The notes under the pieces were generated by a model. The model saw only the letters and a list, made by a program, of their open reading frames with translations, was not told the origin of the DNA and ran no database searches. A stretch of DNA of 64,000 nt, from contig JBAXGN010000002.1 in assembly GCA_037139415.1 (NCBI GenBank), positions 1 to 64,000 on the forward strand, given 5' to 3'. This DNA is from Verrucomicrobiota bacterium. Lineage in GTDB: Bacteria > Verrucomicrobiota > Verrucomicrobiia > Limisphaerales > Fontisphaeraceae. How positions within the stretch are numbered: the stretch's first letter is position 1; every line of letters begins with the position of its first letter. The translations under genes were made by a program, and so were the position numbers. Of the stretch, positions 8,463 through 61,501 are shown in pieces.

Positions 8463-8597
8463 ACACCCCATCTTGGGGGCGCTCACGCTGTGAGATGCAA
8501 GCGCGCGTTGAGTGTGTCATTGCGCGCCTAAAAAGCTGGACAAAGCCGGCGCTGATTATTTAGAGTGGCCCCTCGAACACGAAAAACTAATATAAAT

Positions 8598-9455
8598 ATG
8601 ATCCATACAACACGTCGTCAGTTTGTCAAAGGATCGGTGCTTACCGCCGCTGCCTTGGGCATGAAACCTTATTTAAGCGCCTTTGGCGCCGGTCAAACCA
8701 TGAAAATTTCCGTGCAGCTTTATTCGGTGCGCACGGATTGCGCCAAGAATTTTGACGCCGTGCTGGCGCAACTGGCGAAAATGGGGTTTGAAGGGGTGGA
8801 GTTCGCCGGGTATCACTCTTATGGCGGCAAGGCCGCTGAATTGCGTAAAAAGCTGGATGAACTGAATTTGAAGGCGGCGGGCACACACATCGGCACCGGC
8901 AGTTTCCGTGGCGATGCCTTGCAGAAGACCATCGAGTTTCACCAGACCATCGGCTGCAAATATCTCATCGTGCCTGGTGACAAGGATTTTACCGATCCGG
9001 AGAAAAGCAAAGCGCTGGCGGAAACCTTCAACAAAACCGCCGAAGTGCTCAAGCCATTGGGCCTGTACTGCGGTTATCATAATCACACCGGCGAGTTCAA
9101 GAAGAACGGGGACAAGACCTATTATGATCTGTTCGCGGAACGCACCAGCAAGGACGTCGTGTTGCAACAGGACTGCGGATGGACGGCGGCCGCCGGTTTG
9201 AACCCCGTGGATTTGATGAAGCGTTATCAAGGCCGCATGAAGATTACGCATTTCAAGCCAACCGTCGTTGGCGACGACAAGACCAAAAAAGCCATCTTAG
9301 GTCAGGATTCCGTGGACTGGTCCGCCGTGATTGCCGCCTGCCGCGAATTTGGCGGGACGGAATGGATCACCGTGGAACAGGAACGATATCCCGATGGCAA
9401 GTCGCCCATGGAATGCACCGAGATGTCTCTGGCCGGCTTGAAGAAGTTGTTATAA
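8598..9455 (+). CDS. Tat-exported sugar phosphate isomerase/epimerase (TIM barrel)
   Basis: The 285-aa product starts with a twin-arginine signal (TTRRQFVKG at residues 4-12, then a hydrophobic segment with A-rich cleavage region near residue 35), so it is probably exported folded by Tat; tatA and tatC lie later in this window. The mature part is an AP-endonuclease-2-like TIM barrel: SVQLYSVR beta-1, GFEGVEFAGY, CGYHNHTGEF (metal-ligand region), LQQDCGW, THFKP and ITVEQER near the C-terminus. This family acts on sugars and inositols; the substrate cannot be stated. The start ATG 8598 is chosen for the Tat motif. Confidence 0.88.
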   Translation: MIHTTRRQFVKGSVLTAAALGMKPYLSAFGAGQTMKISVQLYSVRTDCAKNFDAVLAQLAKMGFEGVEFAGYHSYGGKAAELRKKLDELNLKAAGTHIGTGSFRGDALQKTIEFHQTIGCKYLIVPGDKDFTDPEKSKALAETFNKTAEVLKPLGLYCGYHNHTGEFKKNGDKTYYDLFAERTSKDVVLQQDCGWTAAAGLNPVDLMKRYQGRMKITHFKPTVVGDDKTKKAILGQDSVDWSAVIAACREFGGTEWITVEQERYPDGKSPMECTEMSLAGLKKLL

Positions 9456-10369: not shown

Positions 10370-13363
10370 TCAGGTGTTCGTGCGATAAGGGGGTGGCTCT
10401 TCGTGGAGGAAATAAGCGTGCGCGGCGTCTGCGGCGGCTTGATCGGCATTGGGGACTTGCTGCGCCAAGAGTGGCGGAACGGGCGGAACATCAGCCGCTT
10501 TCTTTTTGCGGCGGGCGGTATGTTTTGGCTTGGCAGTTGGGGCCAACGGAGCGGTGATTTGTTCGTAAAGCTGGAAAAGAAATTCCACCCGCTGACGGTC
10601 GGACACGAATGGTTTTTTGCGATAACAACGATCCACTGCGCGATCCAGTTCCTGGTGCGCTTTGAGCAGCGGCGCAGGCATGGCCAATGGGTCATAGAGA
10701 TCGGCAAGGGACGCCGGGACAATGCCTGTTTTTCTGGTGGGCAGAAATCCATGCCGTCCATCGCCGTATTCAACGCGCAGTTCCAAGACACGACGTGCAC
10801 AGGTGATTACGGTGTTTCGCTGTGTATCCGTCGGGGTTTCCGGCCAGGGATAGTTGTTATAAACAAGCCGATTTGAATAGCGGTAATCACTTTTTAACCG
10901 CCCTGCCACCAATCGCACCCAAGCCATGTGCATTACCGAGGACAATACCCCAAAGTGATACGGCGTTGCCTCGGGAATGACTTGCAGGAGATCACTGCTG
11001 AGGATGTCCGGTTTGATAAAGCCAATGGGAATGTAGGGGCGACGTTCCGAACTGACCTTGGGCACCACCAGATACGCGCGCTCAGGAAAATTCTCCACAT
11101 GGAACCGGGTGGGGGTTGCCGCCAGTTTCTTGGTGGGCGCACTTTTGCTCGCCAGACGAAACTTGCGGACGGCTTCCACGCGGGCAAGAGCCAAAGGCAT
11201 GCTCCGCAACTGGGCTGGAGGGCACTCTCCCAACCATAAACACCAACGTTCGATCCCATTGATAAACTCCTCGGAACCAATCCAACGCCGAAACAATGGC
11301 TCTGCCGCCGGTTCCATCTTTATAAAAGCGGCTTTTTCTTCAGGAGTGAATAAATAATTACCACCATCAATGGGCTTATTGCCGATGCCCATGGGCGGCA
11401 CCGGGCAAATCGGGGTGGTGCGGCTGATGATAACGCGATCCGCTCCTTCCACGAGGTAAGGGCTGATATTTCCCGCCGTGCTGATGGTAGGATGCTCCGG
11501 GTCGGACTCGTAATCGTAAATGCGCTTCACCGGTGCATTACCCGCGCCAAACCCAAGGATGACAACATGCACGTGTGCTTTGCCACGGGCTTCACTTTCC
11601 CATGGAAAAGTGCGGTGGACAAAATGTATTTTTACGCCGAAATGTTGAAAAAGCGCATGCCAAAGTACGCCCGCTTGCTCGCCTTGCGTAATGGAATTGG
11701 TGGAAACAAGCGCAGTTATTATCTGAGTGTCGCGCATGTATTCCGCTGCCTTGAAATACCAGCCGGTCACCAAATCCAAAAGCCCGGCATTCTCCACACC
11801 TTCCGCCACAATATCCATGTCCGCACGTTGTTCCGCCGTTTGGTATTTGCTCCCCACGAACGGCGGATTCCCCAGGATGAACGAACATTGCTTCGGCGGC
11901 AGCACGGTACGCCACTCAGTGCGCAGCGCGTTGGCAACCATGATATGTGGCGAGGAATGCAGCGGCAACCGCAGCACCAGTTGGGAAAACGCCTGGGATA
12001 GGGCGATATTGGCTTGATGGTCCGTGAGCCACAGTGCCACTTCGGCAATCCGAGCGGGGAATTCCTCAATCTCGATACCGTAAAATTGGTGGACGTTGAG
12101 CTTGGAAAGTTTATTAACGTAATCCAGCGCCATTTCATGCTGGCGACCGTGCAATTCCAGCAGCACTTCCAATTCCAGCTTGCGCAGTTCGCGGTAGGTG
12201 ATGACCAGAAAGTTGCCGCACCCGCAGGCGGGATCGAAGAACGTCAGCTTGGCCAGTTTCTCATGGAATTCCTCCAGCCGGGCGGTGCGGCGGGTGGAAC
12301 GGTTGGTCTTGATGCTTTCAAACTCTGCCCGCAGTTCATCCAGAAACAGTGAACGAATGAGCTTCAGAATGTTCTTTTCCGCCGTGTAATGCGCGCCCAC
12401 CTGGCGGCGTTCCTTGCTGTCCATGACGGCTTGGAAGAGCGACCCGAAGACGGCGGGGGAAATAGTCTCCCAATGGAACCGGCAACAGGCCAGCAGGCCA
12501 TTGCGCATGTCGGCATTGAAATCCGCAAACTCCAGCTTCTCGGAAAAGAGTTCGCCGTTCACATACGGGAACTGGCTCAGGTCCTCATCCAGGTTCTTTT
12601 GGCGTTGCGTGGTATCCGTGTTGAGAATGCGAAACAGATGTGCCAAACGGAGACCGAGATCGGAGCCATCCTCGGCGGTACGATCGCGGATTAACAATTC
12701 AAAACCTTTGGTCGGGAAAAGGCCGGTGTCTTCAGCGAAAAGACAAAAGAGGATGCGGACCAGGAACCGTTTGAGTTCGTGCCCAGTGTAGCCGCCATGC
12801 TCCAAGGCATCGTGCAGGTTGCACATGAGCTGGGTGGCTTCGAGGTTTGCGGGGCTTTCCGGGTCCAGCCGATGCTGGGTATATCCGGCGACGAACGCAA
12901 AATGGCGGATATGCTTGTGAAACTCTGCGAGCGGAAACTCAATGCTGGGCGGCAACCGTTGCAACAGCGGGGCATCCGGGTCTTGTTCCGGCTCCAAATC
13001 ATGCAACGCAACGCGCGTGAAATCAGAGACGAGCAGCCAACGGGGAATTTCCGCATCGCGCCCGGAGTTCTTCAAGCCGCGAATGTAATCCATGCCTTGC
13101 GCGTGGGCTTTGCCGAGGTCCGCCCCGGCGGTCTTGTGCTCGACGAGCAGTTTGCCGGGCCAGAACAGGTCAATGAAGCCCCAATCCCCTGAGAGTTTCT
13201 TGACCGGCTCCTCGAACGTGGCCACGGTGCGGCGGCGGATGCCGAACACATGGAAGAACTCATTCCAGAACGTTTGGCGCTCGGCAGCCTCGCGGGTTTC
13301 GCCTTGCCACTCGTTGGCAAAGGCGATGGCGCGGTGTCGAATCTCATTCCACGAAAGTGGCAT
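10370..13363 (-). CDS. MmeI-like (type IIL/IIG) restriction-modification fusion enzyme
   Basis: A 997-aa single-chain restriction-modification protein. The N-terminal nuclease site is D65-x9-E75-x-K77 (IDLFWPG then VEHK), the same spacing as the D-x9-ExK site of MmeI. A helical linker leads to a gamma-class N6-adenine methyltransferase: HYTAEKNILK near 325, motif I DPACGCGNF at 377-385, and motif IV NPPF at 499-502. The rest should hold the target-recognition domain. No separate restriction or specificity gene lies beside it, which fits the MmeI type, where one polypeptide recognises, methylates one strand and cuts about 20 nt away. The C-terminus has a basic stretch (KHTARRKKK). The catalytic residues look intact, so it is probably active. 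Confidence 0.9.
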   Translation of the reverse strand: MPLSWNEIRHRAIAFANEWQGETREAAERQTFWNEFFHVFGIRRRTVATFEEPVKKLSGDWGFIDLFWPGKLLVEHKTAGADLGKAHAQGMDYIRGLKNSGRDAEIPRWLLVSDFTRVALHDLEPEQDPDAPLLQRLPPSIEFPLAEFHKHIRHFAFVAGYTQHRLDPESPANLEATQLMCNLHDALEHGGYTGHELKRFLVRILFCLFAEDTGLFPTKGFELLIRDRTAEDGSDLGLRLAHLFRILNTDTTQRQKNLDEDLSQFPYVNGELFSEKLEFADFNADMRNGLLACCRFHWETISPAVFGSLFQAVMDSKERRQVGAHYTAEKNILKLIRSLFLDELRAEFESIKTNRSTRRTARLEEFHEKLAKLTFFDPACGCGNFLVITYRELRKLELEVLLELHGRQHEMALDYVNKLSKLNVHQFYGIEIEEFPARIAEVALWLTDHQANIALSQAFSQLVLRLPLHSSPHIMVANALRTEWRTVLPPKQCSFILGNPPFVGSKYQTAEQRADMDIVAEGVENAGLLDLVTGWYFKAAEYMRDTQIITALVSTNSITQGEQAGVLWHALFQHFGVKIHFVHRTFPWESEARGKAHVHVVILGFGAGNAPVKRIYDYESDPEHPTISTAGNISPYLVEGADRVIISRTTPICPVPPMGIGNKPIDGGNYLFTPEEKAAFIKMEPAAEPLFRRWIGSEEFINGIERWCLWLGECPPAQLRSMPLALARVEAVRKFRLASKSAPTKKLAATPTRFHVENFPERAYLVVPKVSSERRPYIPIGFIKPDILSSDLLQVIPEATPYHFGVLSSVMHMAWVRLVAGRLKSDYRYSNRLVYNNYPWPETPTDTQRNTVITCARRVLELRVEYGDGRHGFLPTRKTGIVPASLADLYDPLAMPAPLLKAHQELDRAVDRCYRKKPFVSDRQRVEFLFQLYEQITAPLAPTAKPKHTARRKKKAADVPPVPPLLAQQVPNADQAAADAAHAYFLHEEPPPYRTNT

Positions 13364-16788: not shown

Positions 16789-17145
16789 TTACCGCTGCTG
16801 GAAAATATCGTGAAGCAACGGCCCGCTTGGGGCATTCAACAACACTAGTTGTTCAGCCTTCACATAGTGCAGTTCGAGAGTTCCCCTGTCTGAGCCGTCT
16901 TCAATAACACGCACGCCATCAAGAACAGCGAGAAAACCAAAGACCGCCTGATGGGCCGCAAGAGAGACAGTTTCTCGAACACGTTGTCGGTCGGTTTCGG
17001 ATAACGTGTTGAACCACTGCGATAACGCTACCAGCGCAGGTGCAGGCTTTTTACCCGGTGGGTGCTGAAGCAGCGCTATTGTCTCCTCAGCTGCTGAGTC
17101 TTGGACTTCGGACCGAAGTGCAGCAACAAATTCAGAAGCATTCAT
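16789..17145 (-). CDS. Putative immunity protein of orphan RHS cassette 1
   Basis: A 118-aa soluble, acidic, mostly helical protein of a family I do not recognise. Its ATG overlaps the stop of the orphan RHS toxin (ATGA, 17142-17145), the usual translational coupling of toxin and immunity genes. By position it should bind and neutralise the nuclease-like C-terminus of the protein encoded at 17142-18497. It has no signal peptide, so it acts in the cytoplasm. No other copy is present in the window. Confidence 0.6.
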   Translation of the reverse strand: MNASEFVAALRSEVQDSAAEETIALLQHPPGKKPAPALVALSQWFNTLSETDRQRVRETVSLAAHQAVFGFLAVLDGVRVIEDGSDRGTLELHYVKAEQLVLLNAPSGPLLHDIFQQR

Positions 17146-18497
17146 TTTTGTAAAGCGTTGGGATATTTTTGTTTATTTAGGTCGATTAGCTCGCGCAATG
17201 AACTGTTAGGCGCATCTGTGTAATTCCTCAAATCTCGGATATCTTTGGCGAGTTGGTCCCTTGCAGTTGCCGTGCATTGCCCACGAACCGTTGGAATGGT
17301 TGTGTGCTGTGCGCGGGGAACAGCTATTGCCGGGGCCGAACCTCGATTGTAGTCAGAGATTATTTGTTCAAATGGATGGGCTTGGCCGACGTGATGAATG
17401 TCAAGCTTATCGTTTTTAACAGACCTGGCCAACAAATCATCGGCAGTTCCAACCTCAAACGCCCTAACTGGCCCCTTCGCGGCTACGGTTGATGGCGGAC
17501 CATTGACCCGCATCGTGCTCATCTCGGAAGCCAAAGGCTGAATCCCAGGTGCAAAAAACAAGGCTACGCCCAAACTGGTATTGATATCCTTAAGCAAATA
17601 CGGTGAATTCTCCCAACTGGGATTTTGGGCAAAGCGGTAAGTGTTTTCTCCGCCAATATGAGGGATTGCCGCAACAAACTGCATGGTGCCATTTCCAACA
17701 TCCATCATAGTATTGAGCAGCGTCGCGCCGAGCGCACCAAAATCTGTCGTAATTGACTGATTCACCGTCGCCTTGCAACCGTCCACACGTGTCTGCCAAT
17801 TCGCCGCCCCCTGATCAAAATTCGGCGCGTCGAATAGTCCCAGCGGGTCAATTGAATCCATTGGGCGGTTATGCACAAATCCATATAAATTCACCCCACC
17901 ATATTCCCCAACCGGATCTGCATTTCTCCACCTATGAAGGCTGGGAGTGTATTCACGAAAATGGTAATGGTAATCGCCCGTTTTTGAATCCCACTCCTTG
18001 CTCGAAAACCGGTACGTATTGGCATCCGCCAAGGAGCCATTGATAAACAGAATGTTTCCATACGGATCATACTGATAACGCGCCACTACATTCTGAAGGG
18101 CGTCCACCATCATGGTGATATTGCCATTACCGTCAGCATGATAAAACGCGGAGGCCTGCAAGGCGCTGGAACCCACTCGCCGCATCAAGGCGTTATCTGT
18201 CCGGGCCAGTAACCCACCTATGCCCCCAGCACTTTGGAATCCACCACTTAAGTCAAGCCCCCGAGAATACGTCACACATGGGATATTGTTGCTGTCCCGT
18301 TCCTGCACTACCAAACTACCATCATAAACATACCGGACTTCATTGGTGAGAAGCCAGGAGCTAGTGCGAGCAAATGAGCCATCGGCATAAACAGCAGCCA
18401 TCCGAGGAACAGCCGCGTCCAAGCGCGGCTGATACGCCAAAGCGAGTTGCACAACACATAGCAACCCGGCGAATAACATGTAACAGAACCGGCTCAC
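17142..18497 (-). CDS. Orphan RHS tip cassette 1 with HNH-like nuclease C-terminus
   Basis: A 451-aa protein. Residues 1-21 are a Sec signal peptide (MSRFCYMLF.., cleavage after ALA), then a short joint (AVYADGSFART), RHS core repeats with the DPVG-x19-DPLG pair ending near residue 215, and a unique C-terminus of about 235 residues. The tip has DIHHVGQAHPFEQ near 365 and PAIAVPRAQHTTIP near 390, a pattern seen in HNH/Endo VII-fold RHS toxins; this is an inference. Compared with cassette 2, 94 residues are missing in frame after FART. The start is GTG 18497 (gives an Arg-containing n-region); ATG 18479 is an alternative. The stop overlaps the immunity ATG. Confidence 0.82.
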   Translation of the reverse strand: MSRFCYMLFAGLLCVVQLALAYQPRLDAAVPRMAAVYADGSFARTSSWLLTNEVRYVYDGSLVVQERDSNNIPCVTYSRGLDLSGGFQSAGGIGGLLARTDNALMRRVGSSALQASAFYHADGNGNITMMVDALQNVVARYQYDPYGNILFINGSLADANTYRFSSKEWDSKTGDYHYHFREYTPSLHRWRNADPVGEYGGVNLYGFVHNRPMDSIDPLGLFDAPNFDQGAANWQTRVDGCKATVNQSITTDFGALGATLLNTMMDVGNGTMQFVAAIPHIGGENTYRFAQNPSWENSPYLLKDINTSLGVALFFAPGIQPLASEMSTMRVNGPPSTVAAKGPVRAFEVGTADDLLARSVKNDKLDIHHVGQAHPFEQIISDYNRGSAPAIAVPRAQHTTIPTVRGQCTATARDQLAKDIRDLRNYTDAPNSSLRELIDLNKQKYPNALQK

Positions 18498-18627
18498 GCA
18501 ATGACTTTACCAAGGCTCATCAGGAAAACAAGGACACAGAACTGCACTATCGTTGTTTATGCATTTTTTCGGCGTTTTTTGCGCCATGCAAATAGTTGGC
18601 ATTTCGCCTGCTATTGGTTGCCATCTG
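18498..18627 (-). repeat. RHS cassette leader repeat, copy B
   Basis: Leader of orphan cassette 1. The 18498-18550 part matches the leader of cassette 2 (20686-20740) closely, including the shared ATCAGGAAAACAAGGACACA stretch. The distal 40 bases (18588-18627) are identical to copy A. The distal end overlaps the last codons of the immunity gene at 18611-19099, so that gene's terminal DGNQ residues and stop are written in repeat sequence. A promoter for the cassette would be expected here, but I cannot point to convincing -35/-10 boxes. Confidence 0.85.
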
Positions 18628-19099
18628 TTGGTAGTAAGGAATTGATGTTTAGGAAGCGCCGTGCCTGAATGGTTGTTCGATTTCGAAGCGATTCGTTCTT
18701 AGAAAGCTGCCAAGTGATTGTCCTAAGCGTCGATAGCGCTTCAAGCCACTGTGATCCCTTTCCGATTATCTCAAGTATGTGTTGGCGTCGTTCATCATCT
18801 GTTAATGTTCGGTTTTCGAGATCGAACACCTTGTGGACTGTCTCTCGGTCACCGGCAACGCGGTCGAGACGAATATTAATATGGCAATGTTCTTCACGGG
18901 GATATTCCTGCCGATTCAACTCACGAATGGAAACTGCCAAATTCACGTAATATTGACCACCATAATCCGACTTTTGCAGGTCCAAGACAAGCACAGTTTC
19001 TGGATAATGCCGATACCATGCAGACCGTCGTTTGATGAAGCCGAAAGGCTTCAGAACGCCATCAATTATCTCTTCCAGTTTTTTTTGGTTCGTGATCAT
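18611..19099 (-). CDS. DUF4304-like immunity protein of orphan RHS cassette 2
   Basis: A 162-aa protein resembling the DUF4304 family (KPFGFIKRRSAWYRHYPETV, then VLDLQKSDYGGQYYVNLAV). DUF4304-type proteins are found beside polymorphic toxins, which fits this place. The ATG overlaps the RHS stop (ATGA at 19096-19099). It should neutralise the PD-(D/E)xK-like toxin tip encoded at 19096-20685. The last four residues (DGNQ) and stop lie inside the leader repeat of the next cassette, a sign that the gene end was set by recombination at that repeat. Confidence 0.75.
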   Translation of the reverse strand: MITNQKKLEEIIDGVLKPFGFIKRRSAWYRHYPETVLVLDLQKSDYGGQYYVNLAVSIRELNRQEYPREEHCHINIRLDRVAGDRETVHKVFDLENRTLTDDERRQHILEIIGKGSQWLEALSTLRTITWQLSKNESLRNRTTIQARRFLNINSLLPTDGNQ

Positions 19100-20685
19100 C
19101 GGTTATAGGTGTCCACACTGCCTTTCCAATTACCACCGAAAACTTCTTCTAGTTCTTGAAGATACCCTTCCAATTGGCGTTCGCCACGTTGTATCGCACG
19201 CGGATTGTTCGGTTTAAGCTCGCGAACAATTTTAGCGTCGAAGTCAACAGCATCCGGCTTTTTGCCGCTTGGCAATCTCACCTTCAGGTCATAGCTCGGG
19301 CCTGGGTTGTAGAGCTTGTGAGCATCGCGTCCGGCTTTGGTGAATGCAGTTTCTCCCGACTTTGCAGAACAAGTCCCTTTTGTAAATAAGCTTTTCGCCT
19401 TCTGCCACAATCCCGTTTTGCGCGCAGCATCAGCAATGATAACAGCACCACTGGTGGCCGCAGCTGCGGTTTTAACTTCTGGAACCGGGCCATTCAAATA
19501 ACCCTCTGTGAGGTCAGTTGCATTGCGCGCTGTGGCTTGAAGCGCACTCCATCTTTCTTTTGTTAATTGCTGATCAGTACTAAAGCCGGTGGGGTCATTG
19601 TTTTGATTTAGTTGGTCCTGTAGGTTTTGGCAACTGGAATAGCCTTTTGAACGAGCCCATGCGTCCAGACGATTTTGACCTTGGAGTTCTGCCGCAGAAG
19701 GCCATAAGTATGTTAAGGGATTATACCAATCACCAATTTCCAGCCCGAACGAATCCAGCCAATTCTGAGGATCATTCCCAACGAACCCATATAGGTTAAG
19801 TCCTCCGTATTCCCCAATCGGGTCCGCATTGATCCACCGTTGCAGGCCCGGATTATAGTATCTGCGCCCATAGTAAGGCAGACCGCTTGGCACATGGAAT
19901 TCCTTACTCGAAAACCGGTACGTATTGGCATCCGCCAATGAACCGCTGATGCCAAGCGGATTGCCATAGGGATCATACTGATAACGAGCCACTATATTCT
20001 GAATGGCGTCCACCATCATGGTGATATTGCCATTACCGTCAGCATGATAAAACGCGGAGGCCTGCAAGGCGCTGGAACCCACTCGCCGCATCAAGGCGTT
20101 ATCTGTCCGGGCCAGTAACCCACCTATGCCCCCAGCACTTTGGAATCCACCACTTAAGTCAAGCCCCCGAGAATACGTCACACATGGGATATTGTTGCTG
20201 TCCCGTTCCTGCACTACCAAACTACCATCATAAACATACCGGACTTCATTGGTGAGAAGCCAGGAGCTAGAAGCTGGGAGATAGGAGAAATCACGGACGA
20301 TGCGCCGCCGCATGAGACCATCATAAACGAACTCTGATTTCCACTGATTCGTGGCGGTGATGCGAATGAGTTGGTTATCATCATCGTAATCGAATACTCT
20401 GATTCCATCGCCAACCATGTTTCCATTCAGGTCATAACTGAACGTCGAGGAAGCAGGCACGTTGAGCGTAATAATATTGGTCGCCCTGACTCCATTGGTA
20501 TCCTGAGCAATGGCGGTAAACGTGTTGCTGCCAGTGGACAGGGTTAGATTCGTGCGAGCAAAGGTGCCATCGGCATACACAGCAGCCATCCGAGGAACAG
20601 CCGCGTCCAATCGCGGCTGATACGCCAAAGCGAGTTGTGCCGCGCATAGCAATCCGGCGAATAACATGTAGCAGAACCGGCCCAC
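19096..20685 (-). CDS. Orphan RHS tip cassette 2 with PD-(D/E)xK-like nuclease C-terminus
   Basis: A 529-aa protein with the same Sec signal as cassette 1 (MGRFCYMLF.., ALA cleavage), the joint AVYADGTFART, and about 290 residues of RHS core that are nearly identical in DNA to cassette 1 where both are present. The core-end motif pair is DPIG-x19-DSFG: the second DPxG has changed to DSFG. The unique tip (about residues 311-529) contains KPDAVDFDAKIVRELKPNN near 475-495, which reads as the D...ExK site of a restriction-endonuclease-fold toxin, followed by a QLEGYLQEL helix. The start is GTG 20685. Followed by its DUF4304-like immunity gene with a 4-bp overlap. Confidence 0.85.
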   Translation of the reverse strand: MGRFCYMLFAGLLCAAQLALAYQPRLDAAVPRMAAVYADGTFARTNLTLSTGSNTFTAIAQDTNGVRATNIITLNVPASSTFSYDLNGNMVGDGIRVFDYDDDNQLIRITATNQWKSEFVYDGLMRRRIVRDFSYLPASSSWLLTNEVRYVYDGSLVVQERDSNNIPCVTYSRGLDLSGGFQSAGGIGGLLARTDNALMRRVGSSALQASAFYHADGNGNITMMVDAIQNIVARYQYDPYGNPLGISGSLADANTYRFSSKEFHVPSGLPYYGRRYYNPGLQRWINADPIGEYGGLNLYGFVGNDPQNWLDSFGLEIGDWYNPLTYLWPSAAELQGQNRLDAWARSKGYSSCQNLQDQLNQNNDPTGFSTDQQLTKERWSALQATARNATDLTEGYLNGPVPEVKTAAAATSGAVIIADAARKTGLWQKAKSLFTKGTCSAKSGETAFTKAGRDAHKLYNPGPSYDLKVRLPSGKKPDAVDFDAKIVRELKPNNPRAIQRGERQLEGYLQELEEVFGGNWKGSVDTYNR

Positions 20686-20790
20686 GCAATGACTTTAACA
20701 AAACTCATCAGGAAAACAAGGACACAGAACCGTACTGTTTTTGTTCATGCACTTTTACGGCGCTTTTCACCTGCTATTGGTTGCCGTCTG
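20686..20790 (-). repeat. RHS cassette leader repeat, copy C
   Basis: Leader of orphan cassette 2, between the SUKH-like immunity gene and the cassette start. Its proximal half matches copy B closely; the distal end (20768-20790) matches the 40-base element of copies A and B with two mismatches but lacks the middle part containing ATAGTTGGCA. On the minus strand the distal end again reads DGNQ-stop (from an upstream non-genic frame), although here the immunity gene stops 18 bases earlier. Confidence 0.75.
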
Positions 20791-20807
20791 GTTTCAAGAA
20801 GAGATTT

Positions 20808-21608
20808 TTATTCTTCCAATATTTTGGGTATAAGTTTCCTAAACTCCCAATAGTAATCACGATCTTCCGGCTTTGGATCTGGGAGTGCGAACAACTCGGC
20901 CTCTTGAGGCGAGACAAGATCTTTATAACAGTTTGTGTGCAGTACTGCTCTCTGACCTGGACCAACATGGTGGACGTTCAGGCGGACAGCTCCGTTTAGC
21001 CGCCCATCCTTGGAGCGAACTCCCACCGTTAGTGCTGCCAGTGTATATTGGCTCGCATTAATGATCTCAAATATGTGATTTCCATCGGTGTCAACACCCA
21101 GCACCAGCCAATGCATCATGCGTCTCGCCTCAATAATCTCCGTTTCTTGCGCGGTGAAAGGCTTTGGTCCACGCAATATCTCCTCCCATTTCTTTCTTCC
21201 ATACGCGTTCCGGGCGCTGGCAGAGCTTTCTACTACCCACTCTTCAAAGCTATCCGCCACCTTCGTTTCCGAACCTTCCTCAAATTCAAAAACAGGAAAC
21301 TCAGCCGAATTAACTACAGGCTTCACGTACACAGTCGCACCATCGTGCCATCCAATATGGTAGATTGATGCTCCGTTATCAATCGTCGCCTGTCTTGGTC
21401 CGGCAAATATGCCTATTCGATAGCCAATTCGGCTCCTTCGATATAGTTTTGCGGTTCCGAACTTCAGGGTAAACTCTTTATACGCCGAAGGTAGGGCGAG
21501 GATTGATCCAATCACGGCCTCTCGCAGTTTCACATCCGCAGGACCCTCTACCGAATGAAATTGGGGTGTCTTAATCGCCGATATTTCCTGTTCAAGCCAC
21601 TCAAACAT
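20808..21608 (-). CDS. SUKH (SMI1/KNR4)-like immunity protein
   Basis: A 266-aa protein. The N-terminal half looks like the SUKH superfamily: FEWLEQEI, ILALPSAYKEFTLKFG near residue 40, a beta-rich stretch, and ADSFEEWV near 125. SUKH proteins are widespread immunity proteins of nuclease toxins. The C-terminal half (about 170-266) is beta-rich and not recognised, making the protein longer than the usual 130-200 aa. It starts 20 bases after the stop of the full-length RHS gene and should protect against that toxin tip. Confidence 0.68.
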   Translation of the reverse strand: MFEWLEQEISAIKTPQFHSVEGPADVKLREAVIGSILALPSAYKEFTLKFGTAKLYRRSRIGYRIGIFAGPRQATIDNGASIYHIGWHDGATVYVKPVVNSAEFPVFEFEEGSETKVADSFEEWVVESSASARNAYGRKKWEEILRGPKPFTAQETEIIEARRMMHWLVLGVDTDGNHIFEIINASQYTLAALTVGVRSKDGRLNGAVRLNVHHVGPGQRAVLHTNCYKDLVSPQEAELFALPDPKPEDRDYYWEFRKLIPKILEE

Positions 21609-30229: not shown

Positions 30230-30366
30230 GCCACTATTTCAGGCGGAAGCCGCCTTTGCACACCACTTCGATCAGGACCGTCAGCAGGAAGACACAACTG
30301 ATGACGGCGTTCAGGCGGAAGAAGGAGTTCTGCACCCAGTTTAACCCGCGTCGGCGCGCCAGCCAA
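30230..30366. repeat. 137-bp direct repeat at the ubiA 3' end, copy 2
   Basis: The intact counterpart of 16358-16494. It starts four bases beyond the ubiA stop and covers the last 131 bases of the gene. Together the two copies bracket a 13.7-kb block. A repeat that includes the end of an intact conserved gene is how attachment sites of integrating elements often look, but no integrase lies between the copies. Confidence 0.88.
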
Positions 30367-31130
30367 TGTTCAAAAACCAGGCAGCTCAGGATGATCAGCA
30401 GTCCGAGCAGATACGCAAGGCGGAAGCGGCACAGCAGGCCAAAAAGGAACAACAAACCCCACATGAGCATGTGCGAGAGGAATGCGGCGGTTAGTGCGTT
30501 TTTCGGCCCCCATGCCACGACCAGGGAATGCAGGCCGTGCTGGCGATCAAATTCATAATCCTGGATGGCGTAGATGAGGTCGAACCCGATCAGCCAGAAA
30601 ATCACCACCACCGCCAGCACCGACATTTCCAACACTTCGATGCCGGTGACGTCCATGCCCCGGACGGCGAGCCAACCGCCTACTGGCGCGAGCGCCAGCG
30701 CCAGACCAAGGAAGACGTGTGTGTAATCGGTGAATCGTTTGGTCAGTGAGTAGAAACACACCACTACGATTGCGACGGGGGACAGGTAGAAGCAAAGCCG
30801 GTTGAGTAAGAAGCTGATCGCAATCAGTCCCAAGGCACTCAGGATGCAGAGCAGCCATGCATCGCTTAACTTGATTTTTCCGGCAGGCAAATGGCGCCCG
30901 GCGGTGCGCGGGTTCTGGGCGTCATATTCCCGGTCGGCGATCCGGTTGAAACTCATCGCGCAAGTGCGGGCGCAGACCATCGCACCCAGAATCAACCCGA
31001 ATTTGGTCCAGCCCGGCCAGCCATAATTATCCCGCGCCGCCACCGCCATGGCCGCCAGGGCAAACGGCAGGGCGAAAATCGTATGGGAGAATTTGACGAA
31101 CTCTCCCCATCTGCGCAGGGTGGCAAACAT
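30234..31130 (-). CDS. ubiA: UbiA family prenyltransferase (4-hydroxybenzoate type)
   Basis: A 298-aa polytopic membrane enzyme that attaches a polyprenyl chain to an aromatic acid in quinone synthesis. The two Asp-rich motifs are visible: NRIADREYD (near residue 70) and YAIQDYEFD (near 190), with about eight hydrophobic segments. The NPRTAGRHLPAG motif after the first site is typical of 4-hydroxybenzoate prenyltransferases; homologues called MqnP work in the futalosine menaquinone pathway, and this cannot be separated here. ATG 31130 was chosen over ATG 31181 because it begins the conserved MFATLRRW. It is the last gene of the Tol-Pal-Tat run. Confidence 0.9.
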   Translation of the reverse strand: MFATLRRWGEFVKFSHTIFALPFALAAMAVAARDNYGWPGWTKFGLILGAMVCARTCAMSFNRIADREYDAQNPRTAGRHLPAGKIKLSDAWLLCILSALGLIAISFLLNRLCFYLSPVAIVVVCFYSLTKRFTDYTHVFLGLALALAPVGGWLAVRGMDVTGIEVLEMSVLAVVVIFWLIGFDLIYAIQDYEFDRQHGLHSLVVAWGPKNALTAAFLSHMLMWGLLFLFGLLCRFRLAYLLGLLIILSCLVFEHWLARRRGLNWVQNSFFRLNAVISCVFLLTVLIEVVCKGGFRLK

Positions 31131-31199
31131 CACATTACAACGGGCATTCGGTTTTCGGGTTTGGCCCGCGACCGCCATCATCCCCGGCCAACCGTCACG

Positions 31200-32660
31200 T
31201 TAATCTTGCTTCGGGTTGGCGGCTTCGGCTTCCGCTTTTTTGCGGGCCTGACGTTCCCAGTACCAAGCGACCCAGATGCTCATTTCGTACATTAATTGCA
31301 GCGGAATGAACATCAGAAGCTGCGTCAGTACCTCGGGGGTGGTCAGCAACGCGCCCAGAATCAGGTTCACCACGATCATGTACCGGCGGAACCCGGCCAG
31401 TTTCTGATAATCCAGAATTCCGATCTTCACCAACGCCAGCAAAATGACCGGCATTTCAAAGCCCAGCCCCATGCCCAGCATGAATTTGCAGGTGAAACTG
31501 AAATACGTCTCCGCGCGCCATTGCGGCACTTCAATCCCCATCCATAACGCATATTGCTCCGCTGCGCGCAGGGCCAGCGGCATGATCGCGAAATAACAAA
31601 AGCTCACGCCGGTCAAGAAAAGAGCCAGCCCAATGAAGAAGGCGCGCACAAAGTACTTTTTCTCCTTCCAACGCAGCGCTGGCACGATGTATTGGCCGAG
31701 GAAATAGAACAGGAATGGGGCGGCCAGCAACAGGCCACCAAAGAAGGCGATGTGCAGCGAGGAAACAAACGGGGCGGCGGGGTCCAAGTACACCAGTTTG
31801 GGGCCAATGGAGACTTTGCTTTCCAACGGGGAGTTGGTTTCCACTTTCAAGGCGAGCATCGGCTGATCATTGATCATCACGGTGGTCATGCGCATTACCA
31901 CGGCCTGGTTGCTGCCCAGGTTCAATCCGGCAAACAGGTTGGTCTCCGTCTTGAACTGCCAGAGAATCTGGTCATTCACCGCCACGCCCACATGTTTGGT
32001 GTTGCTGGCGGAAATCAGGGCGGAAGTCATCTTCCCGGCGCGATGGAGTGGCCAAGTGAGGATTTCGACCACATAGTTCACGCCAAACAGGCAGACCATC
32101 ATGCCCAACAGCAGCGCAATGGCACATTTGACGAGCACCCAGCGCAAATCCTCGAGGTGTTCCAGAAAGGATTTAATCGGCCCGCCTTCATCCCCGCTAT
32201 CGTCCGAGGTGCTGGGCGGTTCGGTGCTGTCACCGCCGCCTTGTCCCGTATTACCGCTCTCACTTGCAGGGTTGGCTACCGCCGTGGTGGAACTACCGCT
32301 GTCGCTGGTACCACTGCCTTCCGGGTGCTCGCTGTGATAATCGTAATTGTATTCTCCGTAATCGGATTGACTGTTGTATTCCGAGTATTCGGAGGTGGTG
32401 GATGCCGTCTCAGAAGGTGCAACGGCGGAACTATCGCTGGCAGGTGGTACCGGAGCGGGTGTACCGTCCGCGTTTGCGGACGGCGTTTTCGCTTCAGCAG
32501 GAGCCGGGGCAGGGGCCGGATGCTCCGAACCGGTGGTGCCGGTTGGAGTGGGCGTGGTCACGGATTCAGCCGGTACAGTCCCTTCTGGAACCTTTGCTCC
32601 CGAATTTGGAGGTAATTGTGCCGGGCTATCCTGACCCGGTGCGCCGGGCTCGTTAGCCAT
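31200..32660 (-). CDS. tatC: Sec-independent protein translocase TatC with long N-terminal extension
   Basis: TatC is the receptor for twin-arginine signals. The core begins near residue 163 with SFLEHLEDLRW, the signature start, followed by six membrane segments including FFGGLLLAAPFLFYF and GLGFEMPVIL. The protein is 486 aa, about twice the usual 240-260. The extra part is a low-complexity cytoplasmic extension (residues 1-162) rich in Pro/Ala, then Tyr/Glu/Ser (EYSEYNSQSDYGEYNYDY), then Gly/Ser, and a long first periplasmic loop of about 100 residues. It directly follows tatA. Tat substrates are present in this window (8598-9455). Confidence 0.93.
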   Translation of the reverse strand: MANEPGAPGQDSPAQLPPNSGAKVPEGTVPAESVTTPTPTGTTGSEHPAPAPAPAEAKTPSANADGTPAPVPPASDSSAVAPSETASTTSEYSEYNSQSDYGEYNYDYHSEHPEGSGTSDSGSSTTAVANPASESGNTGQGGGDSTEPPSTSDDSGDEGGPIKSFLEHLEDLRWVLVKCAIALLLGMMVCLFGVNYVVEILTWPLHRAGKMTSALISASNTKHVGVAVNDQILWQFKTETNLFAGLNLGSNQAVVMRMTTVMINDQPMLALKVETNSPLESKVSIGPKLVYLDPAAPFVSSLHIAFFGGLLLAAPFLFYFLGQYIVPALRWKEKKYFVRAFFIGLALFLTGVSFCYFAIMPLALRAAEQYALWMGIEVPQWRAETYFSFTCKFMLGMGLGFEMPVILLALVKIGILDYQKLAGFRRYMIVVNLILGALLTTPEVLTQLLMFIPLQLMYEMSIWVAWYWERQARKKAEAEAANPKQD

Positions 32661-32681: not shown

Positions 32682-32963
32682 TTAAGAGACCTTAACCTGC
32701 GGAGTTTGGGGCGGTTGCGCTTGCGGAACCGGAGTCGGGGCCGGGGGGGCCACCTTTTTCGGCGGTGCTGATTCTTCAGTCATCGCGCGTTGCAATTCGC
32801 TATTGACCTCATTGGAGGCCTTCTTAAATTCCTTGATGCCCTGACCGAGACCTTTGGCAAATTCGGGAATTTTCTTGGCGCCGAATAAAACCAGAATGAC
32901 GACCAGCACGAGCACCAGCTCGCCGCCGCTCAGTCCCAAAACTGCCAACATTGCATTACTCAT
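32682..32963 (-). CDS. tatA: Sec-independent protein translocase subunit TatA
   Basis: A 93-aa protein with the TatA/E plan: a short periplasmic start, one transmembrane helix ([15 protein letters not shown]), the hinge FGAKKIPE, an amphipathic helix ([15 protein letters not shown]) and a Pro/Ala-rich charged tail. It polymerises around TatC to form the translocation pore. It lies 21 bases upstream of tatC in the same direction and downstream of the pal genes. Confidence 0.95.
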
Positions 32964-53458: not shown

Positions 53459-55564
<2,106 letters not shown>

Positions 55565-58609: not shown

Positions 58610-61501
58610 TCAGGGCATCGGTCTGGAATCCAGTTCCTCCGCCACGCGGCGAATACCTTTGGCGACATCGGTCCAAGCGGTGTCGCGGTCTTCCCATTTC
58701 TTCACTGGGCGGCCATCTTTGGGTAGTGCCTGCAATTTACTGAACGGCGCGCAGTGCCAGTCGCAATCGCGGAGGATGACCGGGATGACCACGGCTTCCT
58801 TTTTCTCGTGGCGCTCCATGGCCCGTTTCATTTCAAGGTCGTAGCAATAATCAGAGGCGATGAAATCGGCGCTGACCAGCAACAGGATGATGTCGGCCTG
58901 ATTTAGGTGATCATCTATCTGCTTGGCCCATTCTGTGCCAGCCGTAATGCGCCGGTCATGCCAATCGGAGATTTTGCCTTCCCGCTTGAGTAGTTTGAGG
59001 TGCGTTTCCAATTTGTCGCGCAAGGTTTCGTCTTTGTGCGAATAGCTGTAGAAGAGTTTGGGTGCTTTCATGGTTTCTTCCTTGGTTTTGGTTGTTTTGC
59101 GTACATTGGGCAAATCCACGCCGCTGAGCAATTCAACAACGCTCACAATGATCACATCATCGCCCACCACCTCCGGGAAATCTTTGATGCCTCTGCGTTC
59201 AAACGAAACCAGCTTATCATAATCAATCACCACTTCAGGATGTTTAGGCAGCGGCACCTTGGTCTTGACCTCCAAGCGCGGAATGCCAGCGTGGATGCGC
59301 TCAAAGTCCATTCGGATGACGGCCAGCAGTCGCCGCCGGCTCTCCGAGCCATCGTCGCGCACGCGCACGACCACCCGCCGGGTGCCAGCCTCGGCCTTGA
59401 CCATGGCGCGGCAGTTCTCCCAGCGCAAGACCACACCAGTACGCCAGCGGGGCTGCCCTTGGCTGTGGATATGGGAACGGACGATGAACTGCGGCAGCAG
59501 CCCTTCCGGCAGAATGTCATAATGATATTCAAAGTTCAGGCATTGTTCCGGCGCGAATTCTTTTTTCAAGTCCGGTTCCTCCTTACCCAGCAGTTCGGGC
59601 ACCAAGTAGCGGTGCTGATTATCGGGGAAGGCAAAGCAGAGGTGGAATTTGCGCATCAATTCCAACAGGAACTCATGTTTTTCCGGAGGGTATTCCTCGC
59701 TGAGGAGAAAGCGTGACAAGTCATGGAGGATCAGCTCGCCCTGCTGTTTGGCCAGCGCGCTGGCGTTGAGGAGACGGTAAATGCCTTCGGTCACCCACCG
59801 GGGTTTGAGCACGCTGGTATCGCGCAGGCGGGGATCATCCTTGTAATTGAGCGCGACGCCCAGACAATGCAGAAAACCAGCCAGCTCTTCCTGGGATTTG
59901 GAATCCCCTTCGCCCAATCGGGCGCAGGTGGCGCGGAACTGGTCAAAACTGAGGTAATTCACTTTCATTCCCGCCAGTTCATCCTTGATCGCAAACCAGG
60001 CCTTCGGAAAGCTGGCGCGCACATTGGTCATCTCGCCCAGCGTCTGCTTAATGCGCGATTCCAATTCCGCAAACCCGGTCGGCGTTCGGCAATCGGTCTT
60101 CACATAGCCGCGGATTTGGGGATACTTGGCCTGCAAACCACGGTAATTCAGGTCAAACGAATGCTGGTCAATCTTGTTCTGGACAATGATAACCGGGGAA
60201 TCGCCGCCAAAGCTCGCAATCAGCTTGAGCCAATATTCCGCATCCAAATCCTCCCCCCCTTCGCGTCCGTTGAGGACCAGTAGGTAGAGGCTGCGATCCG
60301 TGAGAAAGAATTGGTGGGTGGCGTGCATGATTTCCTGGCCACCAAAATCCCAGATATTCATCCGCACTTGGTCTTGGCCCACATTGACCTGCCAATCCGA
60401 AATCGCAATGCCTTCAGTCTTGTCGGTGGGTTCAAAAATGTTTTTGACGAGGCGATTCACCAGACACGTCTTGCCCACTTCGCCCCGGCCCACCAGAATC
60501 AGCTTGGCTTCGTTGAGCGGGCGTTTGCCGCCGCGCAAGCGGAAATAATAATCCAGGATGCTGGCGGGGTTGGCGGGTTTATTCTTTTCGTCGGCATCTC
60601 CCCAAGTTGGCCCAAGGATCTCCGGGGGGATACCGAGTTTGGGATTGTCATGCAGGTAAAGCCCTTTAAGTGACTTGAGGTTGCGCAGGCTCTCCGGCAA
60701 GATGGGTAGTTGATTGTTGCTAAGTTCGAGTGTCCGGAGCTGGGTTAGTTGGCTGAGGGCTTCCGGCAAGGCAGTCAGGCGGTTGTTGGAGAGGTCGAGC
60801 TCTTCAAGTTGGGTGAGTTGGCCGAGGGCTTCAGGTACGGCGGTTAGTTGGTTATTTTCGAGGTCGAGGTACGTGAGTTTGGTCAGGTGGCCAAGGGTTT
60901 CTGGTAAGGTGATTAAGCGGTTGTTGCGAAGGCTGAGGCGCTGGAGTTGGGCGAGTTGGCCGAGAGTTTCCGGTAGGGCGGTCAGTTGGTTACCGGAGAG
61001 GTTAAGGCGCTGGAGTTGGGCGAGTTGGCCGAGGAACTCCGGCAACATGGTTAGTTGGTTTTCATTGATATGGAGTTCCTCAAGTTGAGTGAGTTGGCCG
61101 AGGGTTTCTGGGAAGGTGGTCAGGTTGTTGCCATCTAGGTGTAGAATCCGTAGTTGGGTTAGATGGCTAAGGACTTCCGGCAGGTCCGTCAGGTTATTGC
61201 CGGCAAGGTCGAGACGCTGGAGCTGAGTGAACTGGCCGAGGGCTGCTGGTAAGACGGCTAGTTGGTTGCTGGAGAGGTTGAGGTTCGTGAGTTGGACGAG
61301 TTGGCCGAGGGGTTCCGGCAAGGCCGTCAGTTCGTTGCCGAAGAGGATGAGTTCCTGAACTTGGGAAAGTTGGGTAATCGAAGCGGGCAGTTCGGTCAGC
61401 CCTAGTAGCGAAAGGTTCAGTTCGCGCGCGCCGGATTTCCTGGCCAGCTCGATTTTTGCCTCGGCGATTTCCAAGGGGCTTATAAAGTTATCTTTTTCCA
61501 T
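58610..61501 (-). CDS. Roco protein with C-terminal TIR domain (LRR-Roc-COR-TIR)
   Basis: A 963-aa cytosolic protein. Order: about twelve 23-residue leucine-rich repeats (residues 20-300, LPETLGQLTQLQRL type), a Roc GTPase with P-loop GRGEVGKTC (about 336-344), switch II DFGGQE (about 385) and NKID (about 441), a COR dimerisation region (about 480-790), and a TIR domain (about 810-960) starting APKLFYSYSHKDE with a candidate catalytic Glu in CYDLEMKRAMERH (about 889). TIR domains of this type can hydrolyse NAD or sense it. The likely role is ligand-triggered signalling or antiphage defence, inferred. An internal ATG with strong SD exists before the TIR part. Confidence 0.9.
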   Translation of the reverse strand: MEKDNFISPLEIAEAKIELARKSGARELNLSLLGLTELPASITQLSQVQELILFGNELTALPEPLGQLVQLTNLNLSSNQLAVLPAALGQFTQLQRLDLAGNNLTDLPEVLSHLTQLRILHLDGNNLTTFPETLGQLTQLEELHINENQLTMLPEFLGQLAQLQRLNLSGNQLTALPETLGQLAQLQRLSLRNNRLITLPETLGHLTKLTYLDLENNQLTAVPEALGQLTQLEELDLSNNRLTALPEALSQLTQLRTLELSNNQLPILPESLRNLKSLKGLYLHDNPKLGIPPEILGPTWGDADEKNKPANPASILDYYFRLRGGKRPLNEAKLILVGRGEVGKTCLVNRLVKNIFEPTDKTEGIAISDWQVNVGQDQVRMNIWDFGGQEIMHATHQFFLTDRSLYLLVLNGREGGEDLDAEYWLKLIASFGGDSPVIIVQNKIDQHSFDLNYRGLQAKYPQIRGYVKTDCRTPTGFAELESRIKQTLGEMTNVRASFPKAWFAIKDELAGMKVNYLSFDQFRATCARLGEGDSKSQEELAGFLHCLGVALNYKDDPRLRDTSVLKPRWVTEGIYRLLNASALAKQQGELILHDLSRFLLSEEYPPEKHEFLLELMRKFHLCFAFPDNQHRYLVPELLGKEEPDLKKEFAPEQCLNFEYHYDILPEGLLPQFIVRSHIHSQGQPRWRTGVVLRWENCRAMVKAEAGTRRVVVRVRDDGSESRRRLLAVIRMDFERIHAGIPRLEVKTKVPLPKHPEVVIDYDKLVSFERRGIKDFPEVVGDDVIIVSVVELLSGVDLPNVRKTTKTKEETMKAPKLFYSYSHKDETLRDKLETHLKLLKREGKISDWHDRRITAGTEWAKQIDDHLNQADIILLLVSADFIASDYCYDLEMKRAMERHEKKEAVVIPVILRDCDWHCAPFSKLQALPKDGRPVKKWEDRDTAWTDVAKGIRRVAEELDSRPMP

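Follow-up and report, generated by a model that had tools for sequence, protein, structure and literature searches.

A TatC of Limisphaerales with a long N-terminal arm, predicted to be disordered, whose acidic Tyr/His patch appears constrained in relatives

The sole TatC of a Verrucomicrobiota bacterium of the order Limisphaerales (assembly GCA_037139415.1) carries ahead of its core an arm of 157 residues, in which tyrosine and histidine are gathered into one short acidic patch. The arm is almost certainly translated, and codon comparisons give us high confidence that such patches are under amino-acid constraint in related TatCs. Disorder in the cell, a binding partner and a function of the arm are inferred, and our confidence in the function is moderate to low; we tentatively suggest that the arm captures twin-arginine signal peptides before they reach the TatC site. 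The window referred to below is the whole stretch of DNA analysed, 64,000 nucleotides of contig JBAXGN010000002.1. The features discussed are the following.

31200..32660, minus strand: tatC, 486 aa, ATG start, sole TatC of the genome (PF00902, E 5.4e-51)
32190..32660, minus strand: N-terminal cytoplasmic arm, residues 1-157, Ser/Pro/Ala/Thr/Gly-rich, predicted disordered, without family match
32325..32390, minus strand: acidic Tyr(/His) patch, residues 91-112, EYSEYNSQSDYGEYNYDYHSEH, with 6 Tyr and 2 His
31302..32162, minus strand: TatC core (Pfam match, residues 167-453), with twin-arginine-site equivalents H168, D171, Y325, R330 and E333
31797..32054, minus strand: first periplasmic interval, residues 203-288, enlarged to 86 residues (12 in E. 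coli)
32682..32963, minus strand: tatA, 93 aa, only TatA/B/E match in the genome, stop 21 nt before tatC
30234..31181, minus strand: UbiA-family prenyltransferase, next gene downstream of tatC

The open reading frame, strand and coordinates given for tatC in the original prediction proved exact, and the canonical core that it described was confirmed. The product passes both PF00902 (173.8 bits, cut-off 25.1) and TIGR00945 (141.1 bits, cut-off 132.7), and most residues of the putative twin-arginine site are kept. In E. coli TatC the twin-arginine contacts are H12, E15, F94, Y100 and E103 (PMC13323110, in the part available). When the protein was aligned with HMMER to the E. coli TatC chain 9dzz, with residues named as in that paper, H168, D171, Y325 and E333 were identical or conservative, and the Y100 position was occupied by R330. 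The first periplasmic loop had been predicted to be about 60 residues longer than in E. coli. It is indeed enlarged, by 74 residues, but not special: the interval spans at least 77 residues in 90 of 92 members of the order, where an enlarged loop is ordinary. At the position of E. coli D211, a conserved aspartate said to energise TatC movement in the accessible part of a 2026 review, the protein has a glutamate, E443 (31332..31334); a pattern search for this position matched 39 of 92 loci (30 Glu, 9 Asp), with 53 unmatched.

A genome-wide search of the 7.9-Mb genome found one TatC copy. The neighbouring tatA, adjoining on the same strand as expected for a TatC neighbourhood, encodes a product that passes the TatA/E model TIGR01411 (67.1 bits, cut-off 53.9). 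No distinct TatB was found over cut-off in the genome, the TatA product itself scoring 32.9 bits against TIGR01410 (cut-off 56.5), and the single TatA/B/E count applies to an assembly that is 98% complete. Upstream of tatA-tatC lie an OmpA-family gene and a gene which we take to be TolB-like. Two-component TatAC systems are known (available part of PMC13186574).

Elsewhere in the window, a MmeI-type restriction-modification enzyme with five MmeI domains is encoded at 10370..13363 (minus strand), and a 963-aa protein with leucine-rich repeats, a Roc-COR GTPase and a TIR domain at 58610..61501 (minus strand). Two open reading frames with similar starts occupy 17142..21608 (minus strand), one of them (19096..20685) with an RHS repeat and a Tox-REase-9 domain; the DUF4304 protein between them (18611..19099) could be an immunity protein. 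At 8565..9455 (plus strand) a xylose-isomerase-like TIM-barrel protein is encoded, its start containing TTRRQFVKGSVLTAAALG, a likely Tat signal peptide.

TatC has an N-in topology, which places the arm in the cytoplasm. The original prediction had described a low-complexity N-terminal extension with a Tyr-rich acidic stretch, sitting in the region where signal peptides dock, and this description stood up to analysis. About 157 residues precede the core, and their charge-hydropathy value (0.392, boundary 0.460) falls on the disordered side. Profile searches with Pfam and NCBIfam gave no family match in the arm, the only Pfam matches in the protein being to TatC. All 6 Tyr of the arm, and 2 of its 3 His, fall within residues 91-112. 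An AlphaFold model built on a two-row alignment (pLDDT 46, pTM 0.31) was unusable. The arm runs into the beginning of TM helix 1, whose E. coli counterpart supplies H12 and E15; in (TatBC)3 trimers the N-terminus of TatC helix 1 lies beside the TatB amphipathic helices (both from the part of PMC13323110 available).

Could the arm be an artefact of start-codon choice? Ahead of the core the tatC frame offers just two starts of the ATG, GTG or TTG kind, the ATG itself (codon 1) and a GTG (codon 34); the following one is a TTG already within the first helix. A start at codon 34 would still leave an arm of at least 124 residues, and a true start near the core is not tenable, since no start codon follows codon 34 until the core is reached. 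Across the first 52 loci analysed from the order, armed loci have 410-684 nt separating the tatA stop and the TatC core, most short forms about 60-90 nt, and the extra DNA was open in the tatC frame. The first residues of the arm resemble those of short-form TatCs (MAxEPx). Short and armed forms mostly have the same beginning (MAxEPE or similar) and rejoin at an acidic EEGGPVK stretch, so that the arm can be read as sequence inserted into an N-terminal tail which is otherwise conserved. No clear Shine-Dalgarno sequence was found upstream of the tatC ATG, and third-codon-position GC drops from 0.75 in the core to 0.55 in the arm; despite this, translation is supported by conservation in relatives. 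We conclude from the start-codon layout, the tatA spacing, and the same insertion and its conservation in relatives that a start-codon artefact is ruled out, and that the arm is almost certainly translated.

Clustering of the patch was scored by comparing the densest 30-residue window of His plus Tyr with 2000 shuffles of the same arm, for 45 arms. For the present arm, none of the 2000 shuffles was as dense. The same was true of 37 of the 45 arms, three more were equalled by 4-16 shuffles, and five failed (L030, 281 shuffles; L091, 2000; L100, 1462; L112, 1719; L114, 1044). By type, 35 patches are His-rich, with at least 6 His in 30 residues together with Asp or Glu, and six arms are Tyr-rich, namely that of the window (L001) and those of L011, L012, L013, L030 and L066; the remaining four (L091, L100, L112, L114) have no patch. 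Unlike the 35, the window arm lacks a dense His stretch, with 3 His in its 155 scored residues. Where present, the densest stretch ends 16-56 residues ahead of the core, and in the window protein about 56 residues separate the patch from H168, further on in the twin-arginine site. Pooled over all 45 arms, those four without a patch included, the densest stretches contain 373 His, 192 Tyr, 366 Asp or Glu, 13 Lys or Arg, 9 Phe or Trp and no Cys. Judged by these compositions, acid plus a planar ring appears to be the common factor, His and Tyr interchanging while acidity persists; patch type (His-rich, Tyr-rich or none) changes 6 times on the tree described below. The spacers change greatly, with Lys-rich repeats in L095, L104 and L109, while the patch persists. 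In L095, L104, L105 and L109 these repeats, within the arm spacer, are histone-H1-like (KKKAAKKK), and the His/Tyr patch is retained. When 24 genomes were searched with a DNA pattern, the motif turned up in tatC; those 11 further matches that were translated lie, by eye, in short or antisense-looking frames.

Such a composition invites other readings of the patch. Folded metalloproteins are exported by Tat, and the His/Asp/Tyr patch might buffer or sense Zn, Ni, Cu or Fe at the entrance to the translocase, and so assist in loading or checking the metallocofactors of folded substrates before export. The 35 His-rich patches do resemble the His-rich tails of metallochaperones (HypB, UreE, Hpn type). 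We nevertheless consider metal binding unlikely: the window patch has only 2 His, L011 and L012 have none although their patch is strictly conserved, His-poor types occur at several places on the tree, and Cys is absent from the pooled stretches. A bacterial tyrosine kinase modifying the Tyr cluster, and thereby gating export, would suit the acidic and disordered context of that cluster, but it hardly fits a patch dominated by His in most relatives, and we give this phosphotyrosine switch very little credence.

Selection on the patch was assessed in close pairs of armed TatCs. Amino-acid identity favoured the patch over the spacer in every one of the 12 pairs, a gap that is inflated by the intrinsically lower exchangeability of His, Tyr and Asp compared to Ala, Ser, Thr and Pro. 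This bias is only partly corrected by NG86 dN/dS, which was lower in the patch (0.02-0.25) than in the spacer (0.27-0.42) in all 8 pairs where both values were finite. These pairs overlap and are not all independent, and three come from one genus. L011 and L012 share a 29-residue Tyr-rich block in which all 10 codon differences are synonymous and none is nonsynonymous (P 4e-7 if neutral). Left out of the pair count, as too distant or without a patch, were L001-L011, L001-L012 and L112-L091. For L112-L091 the stretch chosen is no true patch. For L001 against L011 and L012, identities of 38-40% in the patch, 28-35% in the spacer and 45-47% in the core favour patch constraint weakly at best. In some pairs (f26, L088/L097) the linker after the patch is conserved as much as the patch itself. 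For the patch of the window protein itself there is no close orthologue to compare, the nearest core found reaching no more than 62% identity.

The alternative to constraint is neutral growth, in which a tolerated spacer expanded by repeat slippage and the window patch is a decaying, His-poor remnant. Arm length does vary, from about 120 to 206 residues, overt repeats are seen in L068 ((DPHH)n) and Lys-rich ones in f2, four arms have no patch, and the arms are scattered on the tree. The low dN/dS of the patch in the eight finite pairs, and the purely synonymous differences in the L011/L012 block, argue against it, codon evidence that comes from relatives and not from the window's own copy; neutral growth seems to us improbable. 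We hold with high confidence, on this codon evidence, that the patch is under amino-acid constraint in the relatives. Cutting TatC annotations back to the core would then throw away a constrained element.

How widespread is the arm? A one-per-family sample of the order (58 genomes, that of the window included) contained 14 armed and 38 short TatCs, one intermediate form of about 60 residues (G053), and 5 that could not be called (G029, G032, G045, G049 and G056, which were partial, contig-cut or gave no match). In the full set 46 of 92 loci are armed, which is not a frequency, 40 loci having been added mostly for their long open frames. L087 and L123, scored short there solely on account of a cut contig or a missing start, and L105, whose start is ambiguous, are all labelled armed on the tree. 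Most relatives in the order have an N-terminus of about 10-25 residues, so that Tat export as such does not require the arm. In the family of L014, L084, L118 and L119, a short N-terminus goes with a long open frame past the core, which in L014 is a charged, low-complexity C-terminal extension. We considered whether the arm was a feature of the whole phylum, but none of the 14 loci inspected outside the order shows one (L042, L043, L051, L125-L135; picked mostly for long TatC open frames, and not a census); by eye, their long frames were upstream stretches open seemingly by chance, or else short tails at the N-terminus or tails at the C-terminus.

A quick TatC-core tree of 92 rows from the order and 5 others, with many weak branches, requires 10 changes of the armed state, at least 4 of them forced by well-supported branches. 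A single vertical gain was rejected on this tree (one armed clade, p-AU 0.0002); the changes may be gains or losses. Among TatC cores, that of the window comes closest to short forms (62% identity to G016) and reaches only 45% with its family mates G001 and G002 (L011 and L012), whereas the LigA encoded in the window (53468..55564) scores best with G001 and G002 (72%), several other genomes giving 69-74%. The history of tatC thus probably differs from that of the genome, suggesting that members of the order have exchanged tatC, and the Tyr-rich arm encoded in the window need not be orthologous to those of G001 and G002. A plasmid-record search with the whole protein gave, among the matches listed, matches to the core only, at less than 60% identity. 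Recombination of the arm apart from the core was also considered, on account of a hexamer, PEGTVP (residues 25-30), common to the window and L012 (1 of 1000 shuffles). This was dropped, as the corresponding test with L011 gave 161 of 1000 shuffles and a match of 6-8 is also reached in 4 out of the 855 cross-family pairs.

The reading that we prefer, tentatively and with somewhat less than even confidence, is that of a disordered arm with one selected acidic Tyr/His element that would pre-capture twin-arginine signal peptides. In a TatC trimer, three arms at the cytoplasmic rim would engage the Arg-rich n-regions of Tat signal peptides through weak, multivalent contacts, namely salt bridges with Asp and Glu and stacking on Tyr and His. 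The precursor concentration at the receptor would thus rise before handover to the TatC site. We favour pre-capture because the chemistry of the patch, acid plus ring, is that of the twin-arginine site in multivalent, disordered form: residues E15, E103, F94, Y100 and H12 of the E. coli site are of the same kinds as those of the patch (PMC13323110, part available). Against it, 4 of 45 arms have no patch, the patch of L030 is not significantly clustered, and most relatives in the order do without an arm.

The original prediction suggested that the arm might alter how substrates are recognised or else tether TatA, and both stay hypotheses. On the second view the arm might tether TatA or TatC itself, its Tyr, His and acidic stickers binding the Lys-rich amphipathic helix of TatA or neighbouring arms and clustering TatA or translocons in a condensate-like manner. 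The sticker-and-spacer composition of the arm, the basic residues that follow the TM helix of TatA, and the single TatA of a genome with no TatB over cut-off would all suit such a role. By eye, however, TatA tails are alike in armed and short sets, with nothing obvious pairing with the arm, and a single TatA/B/E was found in 11 of 14 armed genomes compared to 24 of 39 not armed (38 short and G053; Fisher p 0.33). We regard tethering as quite unlikely. Compensation by the arm for a missing TatB or second TatA was rejected on the same absence of association with TatA/B gene number.

To our knowledge, the route by which bacterial Tat precursors reach the receptor before the twin-arginine site is poorly understood. 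Conservation of the patch suggests an unrecognised extra step in the capture of cargo or partners, and a group of related TatCs with or without a detachable arm, on which a conserved patch sits, constitutes a natural experiment. We found no description of a TatC arm of this kind among the open-licence papers listed, and the available part of PMC3827258 does not mention the term n-terminal extension.

A precedent for pre-capture is known from chloroplasts, where disordered regions of STT1 and STT2 bind Tat signals, a binding that needs the RR residues and an acidic WEEPD motif, before the substrate is passed to cpTatC-Hcf106 (review PMC8740050, in the part available). The likeness lies in disordered acidic and aromatic regions serving the Tat receptor, and the job that we propose is analogous, by analogy only: STT1 and STT2 are separate ankyrin-repeat proteins, while the arm belongs to TatC and by Pfam lacks ankyrin repeats. 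An extended version, in which TatC has a built-in disordered antenna whose acidic Tyr/His patch concentrates precursors in cis, as STT1/2 condensates do, and which has been gained, lost or swapped several times in one order, is in our view doubtful. With the His-rich tails of metallochaperones, most armed relatives share a His- and acid-rich disordered stretch, but the window patch is His-poor and has no chaperone domain. Solved complexes already show large periplasmic inserts in TatC, and such inserts are found in the TatCs of Nitratifractor salsuginis and Myxococcus xanthus (available part of PMC13323110). These resemble the present protein in having extra sequence in a periplasmic loop; their additions are periplasmic while the arm is cytoplasmic, and the same part of that paper names no cytoplasmic arm for them. 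Finally, the protein shares with TatC of the E. coli and Aquifex aeolicus type the PF00902/TIGR00945 core, a mostly kept set of His, acidic, aromatic and Glu residues at the putative twin-arginine site, and a position adjoining tatA. It differs from that of E. coli in a first periplasmic interval longer by the 74 residues noted above and in R330 and E443 at the positions of Y100 and D211, and from both in its 157-residue N-terminal arm with a putatively selected patch.
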